Shown here: positions 6,099 through 40,473 of the stretch, piece by piece
Numbering within the stretch: the stretch's first letter is position 1
How the letters are laid out: the number at the start of each line of letters is the position of its first letter
Assembly: GCA_024274915.1 (NCBI GenBank)
Contig: JAJSAC010000021.1
Location: 1-64,000, forward strand
From: Thermodesulfobacteriota bacterium
Lineage (GTDB): Bacteria; Thermosulfidibacterota; Thermosulfidibacteria; Thermosulfidibacterales; B14-G1
Reading direction: 5' to 3'
DNA length: 64,000 nt
Translations under genes and position numbers: made by a program
The notes under the pieces: generated by a model
Told to the model about the DNA's origin: nothing
The model's input: only the letters and a program-made list of their open reading frames with translations
The model's database searches: none

Positions 6099-7216
6099 AG
6101 CACCACCCCCTCGGATACCATGGTGCTTCGGTAGTAGAGGTCTTCCACCACCTGGGGAGTCACCTCTCTGCCGCCCATGGAGACTATGCAGCACTGGATG
6201 GGACATAGGCCTCCCAGGGCACCGCGCACTTCCTGGGAAAAAATGCCTTCGGCCCCGTAGGAGATGGCCCTGTCCAGGACCAACACCCGTTTGAGGTGGG
6301 CCATGGTCTCCCTGAGATGGTCGTAGGGGAAGGGTCTGAATAGGCGCAAGATCACCAGGCCCACCTTTTCACCTGCCTCCCGGAGGCTGTCCACGGCATA
6401 GCGCACGGTACCCGTCAAGGCGCCCGAGGCCAAAAAGGCTACCGTGGCGTCTTCTAGTTGATAGCCTTCCACCGGTTCATAGCACCGCCCCGTCACCTCT
6501 TCCCATTTCTGGAAGGCCTGGAGCCAGCCTTCCAGGGCTCGGGCATGGTCCTTGAAGAGATCTTTTCGCTCCCGGTGATAGAGCCCTGGCTCCAGTATGG
6601 GCCATAAGGTGAAGGGGTCGTGGTGAGAAAGGCGCAGAGGAAAGTCCAGGGGGGGTAGAAAGGCTTCCACCTCTTGGGTGTTCACTAGCTCTACGGGCTC
6701 GGCGGTATGGGAGAGAACGAATCCGTCCAGTCCGACCATGGCTGGCAGAAAAACCCCCTCGGCCACTCGGAAGGCCATGACAGTGAGATCCATGGCTTCC
6801 TGGGCAGAAGCGGCAAATACCTGCATCCAGCCTGTGTCCCGCTGGGAAAGCATGTCCTGTTGGTCACACCAGATGTTCCAGGGGGCGCCCACGGCCCTGT
6901 TGGCCACGGCCATGACCACGGGGAGGCGACCCCCTGCCGTCCAGTGGATCATCTCGTGCATGAAGAGGAGTCCATGGGAAGAGGTGGCGGTGAAGGCCCG
7001 CACCCCTTGGGCCACGGCTCCCACCACAACGGCCAGGGCAGACATCTCGGATTCTACCCGTATGTAGCTGGCTTTCATCTCCCCCTTGGCCACATATTCA
7101 GCAAGCTTCTCGATGATGTGGGTCTGGGGGGTGATGGGATATGCGGCCACCACCTGGGGTTGGCAAAGCTTCACGGCATGGGCCACAGCCTCGGCACCTG
7201 TGAGAACCGTCCTCAT
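6089..7216 (-). CDS. porA: 2-oxoacid:ferredoxin oxidoreductase, alpha subunit
   Basis: Alpha subunit of 375 residues, a normal length for the separate alpha chain. The N-terminal pyrimidine-binding domain carries AAYPITPQTHIIEKLAEY, the invariant Glu region RVESEMSALAVVVGA and TATSSHGLLFMHE. The C-terminal half (about 235-340) is the transketolase-C-like domain. Start ATG 7216 overlaps the hepT stop, so the POR alpha/beta genes are translationally coupled to a toxin-antitoxin pair, which is unusual. Downstream it overlaps porB. Confidence 0.93.
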   Translation of the reverse strand: MRTVLTGAEAVAHAVKLCQPQVVAAYPITPQTHIIEKLAEYVAKGEMKASYIRVESEMSALAVVVGAVAQGVRAFTATSSHGLLFMHEMIHWTAGGRLPVVMAVANRAVGAPWNIWCDQQDMLSQRDTGWMQVFAASAQEAMDLTVMAFRVAEGVFLPAMVGLDGFVLSHTAEPVELVNTQEVEAFLPPLDFPLRLSHHDPFTLWPILEPGLYHRERKDLFKDHARALEGWLQAFQKWEEVTGRCYEPVEGYQLEDATVAFLASGALTGTVRYAVDSLREAGEKVGLVILRLFRPFPYDHLRETMAHLKRVLVLDRAISYGAEGIFSQEVRGALGGLCPIQCCIVSMGGREVTPQVVEDLYYRSTMVSEGVVLWS

Positions 7217-7647: not shown

Positions 7648-8078
7648 GGGCTTCCTCCAAGAAGAGAAGTTGTCTCCTCTCCCTTGCCATCCTTTCCATG
7701 AAGTCGTAGAGACGTGGGCCCTGGTCCCTGTGGAACAGGAGCGTTCCCTCCTGCATCACTTTTACGGCCCAATAAGGAGGAGCCTCGTTTATCACCCTCA
7801 CGTCGAAGACCTCCTGAGGCAGGTCCGTGGCTCTGGTAAAGAAGGGCCATGACCTCCAGCTCGGCCTCGTGGGCGGGAATTCCCTCTTCTATGTATATGG
7901 CCAGGTCTATGTCTCCCGGTTGGAGGGGAGACCCCTTCAGCCAGGAGGAGAAGGAGCCGTAGAGGTAAGTGAAGACCACGAATTCCGCCTCTTCCAGGGT
8001 CTTCCTCAGGACCTCCACCAGCCCTGTGGGTGACTCTTTCTCCAACAGTTCCCTGTATTTGGCCTTCTCTTCCATCAT
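7637..8078 (-). CDS. mntA: MNT-family nucleotidyltransferase antitoxin, apparently frameshifted
   Basis: The first 80 or so residues are a clear minimal nucleotidyltransferase, with TYLYGSFSSWLKGS followed by DIDLAIYIE (GSx10DxD catalytic pattern). Near 7831-7845 the reading frame breaks: continuing in the +1 frame gives LPQEVFDVRVINEAPPYW, then VMQEGTLLF and ERMARERRQLLF, the expected C-terminal half, ending at 7637 inside the hepT start. Dropping one T from the TTT in this stretch would restore the whole protein of about 146 residues. As written, the unshifted frame continues to 7632 with an unrelated tail. Either a sequencing error or real loss of the antitoxin C-terminus. Confidence 0.8.
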
Positions 8079-9002: not shown

Positions 9003-9047
9003 GGGAATAAGATAAAACTAAAAAAATCCTGGGCCAAGGAGGGGGGC

Positions 9048-9818
9048 ATGACAGATTTGAGAAACCGGGTGGTTTTTATCACCGGGGCCAGTGCTGGTAT
9101 AGGCCGGGCCTGCGCCCGGGCCTTTGGCAAGCTGGGCTGCCGGCTCATTTTGGCAGCCAGGCGCCAGGATAGGCTGGATGATCTTAAAAAGGAGTTGGAA
9201 GCAATTGGCCTGGAAGTTTTTAGCCTTACCTTGGACGTGAGGGACCGGGGGCAGGTGGAGGGGGCCGTGGCTTCCCTATCCCGAGAGTGGCAAGGGATCG
9301 AGGTACTGGTGAACAACGCCGGCCTTGCCCGGGGCTTGGACAAGATCCATGAAGGCGAGGTGGAGGACTGGGAGGAGATGATAGACACCAACCTCAAAGG
9401 TCTCCTCTACGTCACCCGGGCCGTGCTTCCGGGCATGGTGAAGCGGAACCGGGGACACATCATCAACATCGGCTCCATTGCCGGGCGGGAGGTGTATCAG
9501 GGAGGCGTCGTTTACTGTGCCACCAAACATGCCGTCCGGACCATCACGTTGGGCCTGCGTCTGGACCTCCTGGGCACAGACATCCGGGTCACCACCGTGG
9601 ATCCCGGCATGGTTGAAACGGAGTTCAGCATAGTGCGTTTCAGGGGAGGGGTGGAGCGGGCCAGGGAGGTGTACGAGGGCCTCCAGCCTTTAACGGCAGA
9701 AGACATCGCCGACGCCGTGGTCTACTGCGCTACCCGGCCCCCCCACGTGAACATCAGTGAGGTGGTGGTTATGCCTACCCACCAGGCGGCGGCCACTAGG
9801 GTCTTTCGACGGAAATGA
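9048..9818 (+). CDS. Short-chain dehydrogenase/reductase (YdfG-like)
   Basis: Classical SDR oxidoreductase of 256 residues. The cofactor motif FITGASAGIGRACARAF lies at the N-terminus, the structural NNAG motif in VLVNNAGLAR, and the catalytic Ser/Tyr/Lys in NIGSIAGREVYQGGVVYCATKH (given here as Ser in IGSIAG and YxxxK in YCATK). The segment VDPGMVETEFSIVRF resembles YdfG/serine 3-dehydrogenase-type enzymes acting on small hydroxy acids with NADP. AGGAGGGGGGC precedes ATG 9048. It overlaps ribD by four bases. Confidence 0.9.
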   Translation: MTDLRNRVVFITGASAGIGRACARAFGKLGCRLILAARRQDRLDDLKKELEAIGLEVFSLTLDVRDRGQVEGAVASLSREWQGIEVLVNNAGLARGLDKIHEGEVEDWEEMIDTNLKGLLYVTRAVLPGMVKRNRGHIINIGSIAGREVYQGGVVYCATKHAVRTITLGLRLDLLGTDIRVTTVDPGMVETEFSIVRFRGGVERAREVYEGLQPLTAEDIADAVVYCATRPPHVNISEVVVMPTHQAAATRVFRRK

Positions 9819-28316: not shown

Positions 28317-28363
28317 GGGTAATACGGGGGGTTCTGGGTCCATTCTCAATATCTACCCTGAAA

Positions 28364-28607
28364 CAGGACTTCCCCCAAGATTCCCTTCTTGGTAAAGGCA
28401 TCATGTTCAGAATTCTGGATTTTTCCCTTCAAACGAGTGAAAGGGCGGGGCATTCCTCCCTTGCCCATGGCTGATAGCTGATGGCTCATGGCTGATAGCA
28501 ACTGTGAGCTATGAACCATGAACTACGAGCTATGAACTATGAGCTATCATCTCTGCGTTCGGAACGCCCCGCCCTGCCCCATAAGAGTAAAACTGGGGGA
28601 AGTCCTG
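28364..28607 (+). repeat. MITE-like element, copy 2 (complete)
   Basis: A 244-bp element bounded by perfect 14-bp terminal inverted repeats, CAGGACTTCCCCCA (28364-28377) and TGGGGGAAGTCCTG (28594-28607). A second, inner inverted repeat pairs AGGGCGGGGCATTCC near 28442 with GGAACGCCCCGCCCT near 28561. The 9-bp sequence CTACCCTGA occurs at 28353-28361 and 28608-28616, the left copy two bases away from the terminal repeat. No coding sequence of useful length; no transposase. The core is a heptanucleotide array. Matches copy 1 over the shared part and copy 3 with several substitutions and one heptamer difference. Confidence 0.9.
28466..28549 (+). repeat. Degenerate heptanucleotide array inside MITE copy 2
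   Basis: Twelve heptamers in unbroken register. The left five follow SATRGCT (for example CATGGCT, GATAGCT); the right seven follow RCTATGA with variants. The two halves are approximate reverse complements of each other, so the array can fold as a ladder-like hairpin. Copy 3 has thirteen heptamers (40290-40380), differing by one inserted CATGGCT. Confidence 0.85.
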
Positions 28608-28621
28608 CTACCCTGAGACGG

Positions 28622-28650
28622 TTGACAGAATTTCAAGCGGGTAATATGTT
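28622..28650 (+). promoter_or_regulatory. Sigma-70-type promoter for the aminotransferase gene
   Basis: Perfect -35 TTGACA (28622-28627), 17-base spacer, -10 TATGTT (28645-28650), 48 bases before the start codon. It lies just outside the MITE and its target duplication, so the gene does not rely on the element for transcription. Confidence 0.6.
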
Positions 28651-28697: not shown

Positions 28698-29897
28698 ATG
28701 GAAGTGAAGATCGCAGGTAGGATGTCCCAGATCAAACCTTCTCCAACCCTGGCCATCACCGCTAAAGCCAAGGCCCTTAAGGCTCAGGGTGTGGATGTGG
28801 TAGGTTTCGGTGCAGGGGAGCCTGATTTTGACACCCCCGAGCACATCAAGGAGGCCGCCGTCAAGGCCCTGAAAGAGGGCTTTACCAAATATACCCCCGT
28901 GCCTGGCATAGATGAACTGCGCCAGGCCGTGGCCGACCAACTGGCCCGGGATTATGGTCTGGAGTACGCCAAAGAGGAGATTATTATCTCTTGTGGCGCT
29001 AAGCACTCCCTGTACAACATCGCCATGGTTCTCTTGGAGCCTGGAGACGAGGTGATTGTTCCTTCGCCTTACTGGGTCACTTATCCCGCCCAGGTTTACA
29101 TCGCCGAGGCTACGCCGATCATCGTAGAAACCTTGGAGGAGAACGATTTTAAGCTCACCCCTGAACAGCTGGAAGAGGCCATCACACCCAGGACCAAGGC
29201 CCTAATCCTTAACTATCCCAGCAACCCCACGGGGGCTTCTTATACCAAGGATGAGTTGGAGAAGCTGGCCGAGGTGGCCTTGAGGCACGATATCTGGGTT
29301 ATATCCGACGAGATCTATGACAAGATCATTTACGACGGCTTCCAACATGTGCCCTTTGCTACCCTTTCCCCTGAAGTGAAGAAGAAGACCCTGTTGGTCA
29401 ACGGGGTGTCCAAGACCTACTCCATGACGGGATGGAGGATAGGCTGGGTGGCAGGCGACAGGGGAGTGGTGGCGGCTATGAATAAACTCCAGAGCCAGTC
29501 CACCTCAAACCCCACTTCTATAGCTCAGTCGGCGGCCTTGGCGGCCTTACAGGGTCCCCAGGACTGCGTGGCGGAGATGGTGAAGGCTTTTCAGGAGCGG
29601 AGGGATTACATTGTCCAGCGCTTCAATTCCATGGAGGGAGTGTCTTGCTTCAACCCATCCGGTGCGTTTTACGTTTTTCCCAGCTTTGCCGGTCTTTACG
29701 GGAAGTGCTGTGGCGACAGGGTGATTCAGGGTTCTTTGGACTTCGCCGATTACCTCCTCAATGAGTTCAAGGTGGCCATTGTGCCCGGTGTGGCCTTCGG
29801 TGAGGACAGAGGGGCCCGCCTTTCCTACGCCACTTCTATGGAGAACATCAAGAAGGGCCTGGACAGAATAGAAGAGGCCATTTCCCAGTTGAAATAG
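28698..29897 (+). CDS. aspC: Class I/II aspartate-type aminotransferase
   Basis: PLP-dependent transaminase of 399 residues. Motifs include GFGAGEPDFDTPEHI, the NPTG motif in NYPSNPTGASYT, the PLP lysine in VNGVSKTYSMTGWRIG, and the C-terminal Arg region GARLSYATS. It fits the aspartate aminotransferase Ib group, so oxaloacetate/aspartate exchange is likely, but other amino acids cannot be excluded. GGAGGCG precedes ATG 28698; the longer frame to 28656 starts inside the promoter region. A terminator follows. Confidence 0.9.
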   Translation: MEVKIAGRMSQIKPSPTLAITAKAKALKAQGVDVVGFGAGEPDFDTPEHIKEAAVKALKEGFTKYTPVPGIDELRQAVADQLARDYGLEYAKEEIIISCGAKHSLYNIAMVLLEPGDEVIVPSPYWVTYPAQVYIAEATPIIVETLEENDFKLTPEQLEEAITPRTKALILNYPSNPTGASYTKDELEKLAEVALRHDIWVISDEIYDKIIYDGFQHVPFATLSPEVKKKTLLVNGVSKTYSMTGWRIGWVAGDRGVVAAMNKLQSQSTSNPTSIAQSAALAALQGPQDCVAEMVKAFQERRDYIVQRFNSMEGVSCFNPSGAFYVFPSFAGLYGKCCGDRVIQGSLDFADYLLNEFKVAIVPGVAFGEDRGARLSYATSMENIKKGLDRIEEAISQLK

Positions 29898-34473: not shown

Positions 34474-35435
34474 AGGCGGAAAAAGAAAGGAAGAGATTTT
34501 TGTCCCTCATCCCTCATCCCTCATCCTTTATTTCTCAGCGGGTCATTACTGGTTTGGTTCTCCTGGCCTTGGCCTTGGCGGTCTTGCTTGTTCCTCACCC
34601 TCTACCGTTGACCTTGTTGGTATGGGTCCTGGGCATGGTGGGGCTGTGGGAGTACCTGCACCTGGTGGAGATAATAGACGGGGGCCCGGGGCTAACGGCC
34701 AGGGGCCAGGGGGGAGAGAGGGAAATGGCTGTTGGACAAGGGCATTCCTCATCCCTCATCCCTTATTCAAACCTGGCCACCCATTCCCTCATCCGTCTAT
34801 CCACTTCTCTCTTCACCTTCACTCTCTTTATTGCGGGTTGCTATTTCAGAAGCCTGCCTCTCCTTCTGGGCTCCCTGGTTTTGCCTTTCATCTGTTTCTC
34901 CCGGGATCTCTTCATGTTCGGTAAGGCGTTCGAAGAGTGGCCCCAAAGACGCTCCCTCTTGGGTCTTTTTGCAGCTGGTCCCCTCTATTTGGGCCTGGGT
35001 TTGGGCTTGGCCGTCTTTTACAAGGTGGAGGGTAACCTCTGGCCTCTTATCCTCGTGGCGGCCTGCGTATGGGCGGGGGACACGGCTGCCTATTATGTGG
35101 GCAAAGCTCTTGGCAAGCGGCCCCTCCATCCTTTAAGTCCAAAGAAGACGTGGGAGGGAACCCTGGGCGGCTTGGTGGTTGGGGCCCTGGCGGCCATGGT
35201 GGTTGGTTTGCTGGGTAAACTCTTTCCCTGGTGGCAGGGGTTTATCTTTGGTTTGTTGGTCAATGCCGTTGGCCAGTTGGGAGACCTTCTGGAGTCCTTT
35301 CTGAAGCGAGTGGCGGGGGTGAAGGATTCAGGCACCGTTTTCCCTGGCCATGGAGGGGTACTGGACAGGATAGATAGTCTTCTTTTGGCACTGCCGTTTT
35401 ATGCTTTGATATCAGGGTTTTTGGCCCTGTTGTGA
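34470..35435 (+). CDS. cdsA: Phosphatidate cytidylyltransferase with repeat-derived insertion
   Basis: Makes CDP-diacylglycerol from phosphatidate and CTP at the membrane. The C-terminal signature is complete ([13 protein letters not shown], then [12 protein letters not shown]) and several membrane helices are visible. At 321 residues it is longer than usual (about 260-290). The extra length is at the N-terminus (LIPHPSSF) and between the second and third helices (about residues 70-110), both encoded by DNA rich in the heptamer CCCTCAT (three tandem copies at 34504-34524, more at 34747-34792). Lies between leuB and dxr, coupled to leuB by ATGA. Confidence 0.9.
34504..34524 (+). repeat. Three tandem CCCTCAT heptamers within cdsA
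   Basis: Three exact copies of CCCTCAT in tandem (34504, 34511, 34518), with further copies at 34753 and 34786 and imperfect ones beside them. Seven bases is not a multiple of three, so each added heptamer shifts the frame; the current number keeps cdsA open. Confidence 0.85.
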
Positions 35436-39974: not shown

Positions 39975-40473
39975 ATGTGCGTGAAGAAGAAAGTGTTAGT
40001 GGGCTTGGGTATGACGGCAGTGTTTTTTTGTGTTCTTGGGGTGGCAGAGGGGAGGCGTGGAGCGGAGTGCTTGCAACTGGCGCGGTAGCCTGTCGTCCTT
40101 GCAAGTCTAGTAGGGAGTGTAGCGACAAAAACCCCTGCACCAAGGACTACTGCAAGGGGGGATCGGTAGCCATCACGAGAAGATGGACAGGACTTCCCCC
40201 AAGATTCCTTTCTTGGCAAAGGCATCATGTTCAGAATCCTGGATTTTCCCTTTCAAACAAGTGAAAAGGCGGGGCATTCCTCCCTTGCCCATGGCTGATA
40301 GCTGATGGCTCATGGCTCATGGCTGATAGCAACCGTGAGCTATGAACCATGAACTACGAGCTATGAACTATGAGCTATCATCTCTGCGGTCGGAACGCCT
40401 CGCCCTGACCCATAAGAGTAAAAATGGGGGAAGTCCTGGAAGATGGAGAATTGCAAGGCCAGATAAAGGTTAG
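39975..40473 (+). pseudogene. Small secreted cysteine-rich protein, frameshifted and split by a MITE
   Basis: ATG 39975 starts a signal peptide (MCVKKKVLVGLGMTAVFF, then CVLGVAEG). That frame ends at a TAG near 40085; one base apart, an open frame continues with ACRPCKSSRECSDK and NPCTKDYCKGGS, a compact Cys-rich repeat. This frame is then interrupted at 40188 by MITE copy 3. Removing the element and one 9-bp duplication restores a reading frame ending RRWRIARPDKG at the TAG 40471-40473. The intact ancestor would be about 80 residues, exported and disulfide-rich or metal-binding. Function unknown. Confidence 0.6.
40188..40438 (+). repeat. MITE-like element, copy 3 (complete, with 9-bp target duplication)
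   Basis: A 251-bp element running from CAGGACTTCCCCC (40188) to GGGGGAAGTCCTG (ends 40438). It is flanked immediately by the exact 9-bp repeat GAAGATGGA at 40179-40187 and 40439-40447, the signature of transposition with a staggered cut. It differs from copy 2 by several substitutions and by one extra heptamer, accounting for the seven-base length difference. It sits in the 3' end of the Cys-rich gene and 194 bases before the PadR start. Confidence 0.92.

Follow-up and report, generated by a model that had tools for sequence, protein, structure and literature searches.

The repeats of the 64,000-nt window analysed here (the whole stretch, bases 1-64000 of contig C11 in the source genome G000) belong to a family of MITEs that is very probably IS4-mobilised, inserts in a fixed register to promoters, carries a replaceable hairpin core of heptamer arrays and consists of mosaic copies. 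The most unusual feature of the family is the near-fixed insertion upstream of a -35 hexamer, which lies outside the positions (28364-28607) on which a preceding sequence-only reading had focused. The source is a hydrothermal-type bacterium with a draft genome of 2.03 Mb in 77 contigs, 93% complete, whose nearest named relatives are MAGs labelled Aquificota bacterium, namely G001 (B14_G1, same genus) and G004 (S016_37, sister genus). The draft was assembled from short reads, and many of its contigs end within MITE copies. The sequence-only reading had recognised the MITE, which is borne out by further copies with terminal repeats and duplications, but it had taken the heptamers as the defining core and had missed both the shuffling among copies and the promoter register.

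The window repeat is a MITE, and the three copies first described are all present on the plus strand: the right part of one at 1-109, where the contig starts within the element, and two complete copies of 244 bp (copy 2, 28364-28607) and 251 bp (copy 3, 40188-40438). The 14-bp terminal inverted repeat CAGGACTTCCCCCA is exact at 96-109 in copy 1, at 28364-28377 (plus strand) and 28594-28607 (minus strand) in copy 2, and at 40188-40201 and 40425-40438 in copy 3. The inner inverted repeat is found as well; in copy 2 its arms, GGGCGGGGCATTCC at 28443-28456 (plus strand) and GGAACGCCCCGCCC at 28561-28574 (minus strand), are complementary at 13/14 positions. Target duplications of 9 bp had been proposed, a size that holds for copy 3, flanked by GAAGATGGA at 40179-40187 and 40439-40447. 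In copy 2, where the duplication had looked offset, the best reading has 11 bp and a single mismatch, flush with the element at either end (CTACCCTGAAA at 28353-28363 and, as read from the sequence, CTACCCTGAGA at 28608-28618, with 10/11 bases matching). As a family-wide size, 9 bp had to be abandoned, since exact duplications span 7-11 bp. As RNA, the window copies are predicted to fold into one long hairpin, with z at about -7 to -8. An Rfam scan of the 64,000-nt window and a PDB search by sequence returned no match, and the exact MITE pattern had no match in a wider contig collection that possibly lacks G000 and its near genomes.

In G000 as a whole, this element without genes occupies about 60 places. 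A genome search with the 244-bp copy 2 gave 41 matches, 40 of them strong, and terminal-repeat matches with at most one mismatch number 133, against 5 for the reversed pattern. From the retrieved stretches, 39 complete copies of 195-295 bp could be delimited, and several dozen further copies are partial, mostly at contig ends. As is usual for MITEs, the element is short, has no transposase gene and bears the 14-bp repeat at both ends, while exact target duplications of 7-11 bp lie flush against both ends in 21/39 complete copies and are missing in 18/39. Seven pairs, in which a contig end is matched with another contig end or with a complete copy, have duplications of at least 8 bp in common, which is what breaks of the assembly within MITE copies would produce. 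An absence of further copies, or of terminal repeats on them, had been named as the sign of segmental duplication; the search for the ends elsewhere in the genome instead found more copies. QMITE2 and other prokaryotic MITEs (PMC10969869) are alike in their terminal repeats, 7-9-bp duplications, gene-less core and stable hairpin transcript, but they are without the heptamer core found here.

Insertion takes place in a fixed register next to putative sigma70-type promoters, in the order duplication, 3 nt, -35 hexamer and then a -10-like hexamer at 16-18 bp. The register was read outward from the duplication edge in the 21 complete copies with exact duplications, taking random genome positions as the null. 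In 18/21 copies TTG starts at +4 on one side or both (null 2.8%, p = 1e-25), and at +1 to +3 or +5 to +12 it starts in 0 or 1 copies each; the best +4 hexamer matches TTGACA in at least four of six bases in 19/21 (null about 6.5%). A -10-like hexamer (at least 4/6 to TATAAT) follows at a spacing of 16-18 in 35/56 flanks (p = 9e-23), compared with 8.3% of other TTGA sites and 12.5% of exact TTGACA sites elsewhere. By spacing, the counts are 7 (16), 15 (17) and 13 (18), with 0-4 at all other spacings tested; the matches are moderate, reaching at least 5/6 in 7/56 flanks. For flanks without an exact duplication, TTGA was searched within a search window of ~11-18 nt, so that its position there is partly due to selection, while the -10 test is independent of that search.

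The flanking -35/-10 pairs are to be taken as promoters predicted from sequence. In five flanks, tRNA genes (ARAGORN) start 40-59 nt after the -35, which makes these sites putative tRNA promoters, and among the intragenic copies with TTG at +4 a -10 is also present in 5/7. The promoter can lie on either side, next to the right arm in 12 cases and the left arm in 7, and the element end lies 11-14 bp from the -35. For a spacer of 17 bp, the duplication covers about -39 to -49, the binding region of class II activators and of the alpha C-terminal domain. Within the window, on the plus strand, copy 1 has beside it a -35-like TTGCGC at 123-128 with TAATCT at 146-151 (spacing 17). Copy 2 is followed by TTGACA at 28622-28627, at +4 from the 11-bp duplication, and by the -10-like TATGTT at 28645-28650 (spacing 17), downstream of which lies an ORF for an aminotransferase, whose frame has an ATG at 28698. 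Beside copy 3, the -35-like TTGCAA at 40451-40456 is again at +4 from the duplication, with no clear -10 at 16-18 bp from it. A palindromic target of the form TCAAG...CTTGA was considered and discarded, as almost every duplication-bearing copy has TTGA on one side only, with a -10 after it.

The register suggests that the transposase or its target complex may read the promoter itself, perhaps docked around -39 to -49 beside the RNA polymerase holoenzyme. The grounds are that a -10 at the 16-18-bp spacing is generally lacking from TTGA sites, and that most intragenic insertion sites, too, look like -35/-10 promoters. In its broader form, the proposal is that a group of IS4-type transposases from several distant genomes targets the promoter-bound holoenzyme beside sigma region 4 and the alpha C-terminal domain, independently of Mutator-type targeting, and that, in the G000 lineage, the MITE of such a transposase brings heptamer hairpin arrays to promoters as well; we advance this tentatively, as plausible if still short of probable. 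It is also conceivable, though doubtful, that the transposase recognises a TTGAC-like DNA motif by its cut site and that the sites look like promoters because purifying selection leaves mainly the intergenic TTGACA sites. In favour of this, TTG keeps its place to the exact base, as direct DNA recognition predicts, and exact TTGACA has a -10 elsewhere somewhat more often than other TTGA (the 12.5% and 8.3% given above). Against motif recognition stand the -10-like hexamers beside 35/56 insertions, which are found also next to weak hexamers (6/8 of those that have TTG without the A of TTGA), as well as in the 5/7 intragenic sites with TTG at +4.

The likely driver of the MITE is an IS4-family insertion sequence (IS) with the same ends, of the CAGGACTTCCCCC type, which would mobilise it in trans. 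IS ends carrying the MITE terminal repeat are found at six G000 contig ends: in C54 and C64 the repeat is followed by non-MITE sequence that recurs in G001, and in C73, C37, C68 and C19 it adjoins a transposase C-terminus. C54 and C73 have the 8-bp duplication GTCAATCC in common. The transposase with matching repeats and duplications that the sequence-only reading had suggested looking for is therefore recovered in part, as IS ends with an unassembled interior: the transposase core is absent from the G000 assembly, the middle of the IS is missing, and mobilisation by this IS is for this reason deduced from its ends. Searches of the C-terminus against Pfam, NCBIfam, phages, plasmids and viral contigs gave no usable match.

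Full-length relatives in distant genomes are IS of 1.44-1.49 kb with similar ends and a single open frame of 397-453 aa, as in IS4 elements, and one of them (L201, 1.45 kb) carries CAGGACTTCCCCC itself, with the duplication GTTCAAATC. Duplications of 8-11 bp in the relatives, and of 8 bp at C54/C73, agree with the roughly one helix turn of the IS4 family. The relatives' transposases pass PF01609 and match only this and the IS4/IS701 models; they fall below every NCBIfam IS cut-off, the best IS4 score being 47.5 bits against a cut-off of 160. Six full-length relatives have Y(2)R(3)E(6)K and D(86-90)D(121-126)E, in line with the YREK motif and the D(60-110)D(100-150)E spacing stated for IS4 in the text of PMC2266710, the G000 copy being readable at the C-terminus only. 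As far as that text goes (De Palmenaer et al. 2008, PMC2266710), the relatives share with the IS4 family the YREK motif, DDE spacing, single ORF, CA ends and 8-11-bp duplications, while the ends CAGGA.TT.CCC have no close fit among the subgroup consensuses listed there, IS4Sa (CA, 8-10 bp) being nearest. The promoter register extends to the distant relatives L198, L201, L203 and L259, which likewise have TTG at +4; it was not seen at +4 in L258 and L197. More distant relatives reside on Thermus and Deinococcus plasmids; L259 is the element of Thermus aquaticus pTA16.

ISAs1 was considered as the parent because of the CAGG ends and the 8-10-bp duplications, and was rejected, as PF13808 (DDE_Tnp_1_assoc) has no match in G000 or in the relatives' transposases, which are IS4-type. 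Unpaired terminal repeats in G003 and G004 were also set aside as autonomous elements, since their appearance is that of nested IS3-like remnants or of truncated MITEs. L147 (G004 C70) and L159 (G003 C36) have similar IS3-like sequence beside or within CAGGACTTC ends, and L159 has a degenerate transposase frame between its two CAGGACTTC ends. In L201, a second IS end (GGGGGAGGTCCTG, at 340-377) precedes the full-length IS and adjoins the duplication GTTCAAATC that they share; two IS copies therefore seem to stand in tandem with a single 9-bp duplication between them.

Left arm, core and right arm variants are freely combined among the MITE copies. All four combinations are seen in 185/255 left-right site pairs, and in 110/210 when only duplication-bearing copies are used. 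In addition, MITE lengths step by 7 bp (27/39 congruent with 244 modulo 7, p = 1e-14). Because of these 7-bp steps and four-gamete patterns, we infer that arms and cores pass between copies, with recombination or gene conversion as the probable route, and that arrays gain and lose whole heptamers, with slippage as the presumed source of length changes; as copies are shuffled among each other, slippage need not explain every length difference. Two inverted copies 10 kb apart, C55:23517 and C55:33798 (G000 C55:23517-34041), carry reciprocally swapped target duplications of 12 bp and 8 bp, which reflects an inversion by recombination between the copies or a mis-assembly. Since G000 is a short-read draft, assembly errors could account for some of the mosaicism. 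That the mosaics are mostly artefacts of short-read metagenome assembly, the true copies forming a few clean subfamilies, is nonetheless unlikely: many contigs do end within copies and the C55 swap could have arisen by mis-assembly, but the mosaic pattern persists among copies in which a duplication of their own vouches for both flanks (the 110/210 pairs). A separate repeat of at least 130 bp is common to three G000 contig ends (C63:1-152, C75:17810-17942 and C73:1-147), and at the first two of these it breaks into a MITE within the heptamers.

Most MITE cores consist of two facing arrays of the degenerate heptamer [AG]C[TC]A[TC][GC]A, whose three-unit pattern occurs 460 times in G000, against 0 for the reversed control. 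In copy 2 the left array (28472-28499, minus strand) has 4 units by pattern and the right one (28501-28549, plus strand) 7 units by a relaxed pattern; in copy 3 there are 5 (40296-40330, minus strand) and 7 (40332-40380, plus strand). The two facing half-arrays are thus as first described, while the 12 or 13 heptamers initially counted hinge on degenerate edge units, the pattern giving 4+7 and 5+7. Similarly, copy 3 is one unit longer than copy 2, as had been noted, but it is not simply copy 2 plus one heptamer, as substitutions also separate them (92% identity). The view that array length evolves apart from transposition is upheld: length varies independently of the arms, the left and right half-arrays vary independently among copies, and unit number and order vary freely. 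Elsewhere in the window, at 34503-34526, a different heptamer from that of the MITE, TCCCTCA, is repeated perfectly 3.4 times in tandem.

The family is not defined by its heptamers, because a different, older core exists in G000 and in the sister genus. Five copies (C34, C36:24321, C66, C62:222 and C64:19556) have an unrelated core of ~85 nt at the same position, with target duplications in C34, C36:24321 and C66, and the C18 copy has a third core type. The sister genus G004 has a homologous MITE family with the same ends, and its common core resembles, by inspection, the alternative core of G000. The heptamer array is a replaceable module, and the alternative core is the older one. In G004 copies L142, L148 and L157 only half of the core is heptamer-replaced, at other junctions than in G000, and because the junctions differ the heptamers are read as having entered the cores twice, separately in the G000 lineage and in part of the G004 family. 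The MITE interior is best seen as a hairpin with a replaceable apical module, in which the older core was exchanged for inverted heptamer arrays on both occasions. The cores of G004 L142, L144-L146, L153 and L157 and of G000 C18:39711 and C64:19556 contain small nested hairpins with perfect arms (CCCCACAAAATC..GATTTTGTGGGG; AAAAAGTC..GACTTTTT), as if the core accepted various palindromic inserts. Modular MITE interiors are already known from the BOX elements of Streptococcus pneumoniae, which, in the part of the source considered (PMC3049150), are modular and hairpin-forming with variable tandem inner units; the likeness is one of architecture only, as the BOX inner unit is the longer boxB module of other sequence and no promoter register is described there.

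Heptamer arrays also stand alone. On G000 C6 three arrays of one orientation (6366-6421, 7788-7852 and 9016-9122) are located at, or just past, open-frame ends, where the units supply TGA stops in changing frames. A facing, hairpin-like pair without MITE ends (C37:23924-23992, in L095) lies within a cobalamin riboswitch (RF00174, 87.9 bits; L095 856-1096), as a 74-nt insertion relative to the family model in its variable, peripheral part. Several stand-alone arrays are found in G001, and arrays were detected in 20/386 sampled genomes, G000 included, compared with 4 having reversed-pattern matches; some stand-alone arrays are inverted pairs within 120 bp. A binding-site or regulatory role has been proposed for TAACTGA arrays, through which heptamer arrays are already known as a class (MacGregor 2015, PMC4679880). 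Like the MITE heptamers, these are short tandem, mostly intergenic arrays scattered over distant phyla; the units here belong to the same class of array without being tandem TAACTGA, a unit that is nearly invariant whereas the present one is degenerate. By analogy, the arrays could be the functional unit under selection, for instance as regulatory protein- or RNA-binding sites, with the MITE as their vehicle. The stand-alone arrays in G000 and other genera, including the one in the riboswitch, and the location of MITE copies at promoters would fit this account, which we nevertheless consider quite improbable, as the older-core copies C34, C36:24321 and C66 also became established with duplications, and heptamer number and order vary freely. 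Finally, the idea that the copies are segmental duplications or recombination-spread repeats can be dismissed, since mosaic arms do occur but homology between copies stops exactly at the terminal repeats, 21 complete copies have their own direct duplications, and insertions keep a fixed register to promoters.

Insertion directed to promoters has been described for TnGBS, for ISLre2 and for certain ISKra4 elements, which are all of Mutator type (Guerillot et al. 2014, PMC3942029). Like the MITE, these insert at a fixed distance upstream of a sigmaA -35, and those TnGBS-type elements with near-perfect repeats do so in either orientation, as is the case here; the distance to the -35 differs (15-17 bp against 11-14 bp), and the transposase here belongs to a superfamily other than the Mutator type. 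The text of the IS4 review (PMC2266710) mentions a striking target-arm specificity for some IS4-subgroup elements and does not mention promoter-tied insertion of the kind seen here; in the papers searched, including the text of that review, no report of promoter targeting by IS4-type elements was found, though the habit may already be on record.

A second, unrelated promoter-targeting transposase family, if true, would suggest that bacterial mobile DNA has repeatedly found a safe harbour at promoters, probably via RNA polymerase, as the yeast Ty elements have at Pol III genes. The spread of heptamer arrays has been an open point, with no evident mechanism for TAACTGA arrays (PMC4679880), and many of the arrays described here sit within, and ride in, a transposable element. 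The fixed geometry makes promoter targeting directly testable. Insertion just upstream of the -35 displaces upstream activator sites, and therefore dozens of promoters in one genome may be rewired by the same 240 bp.
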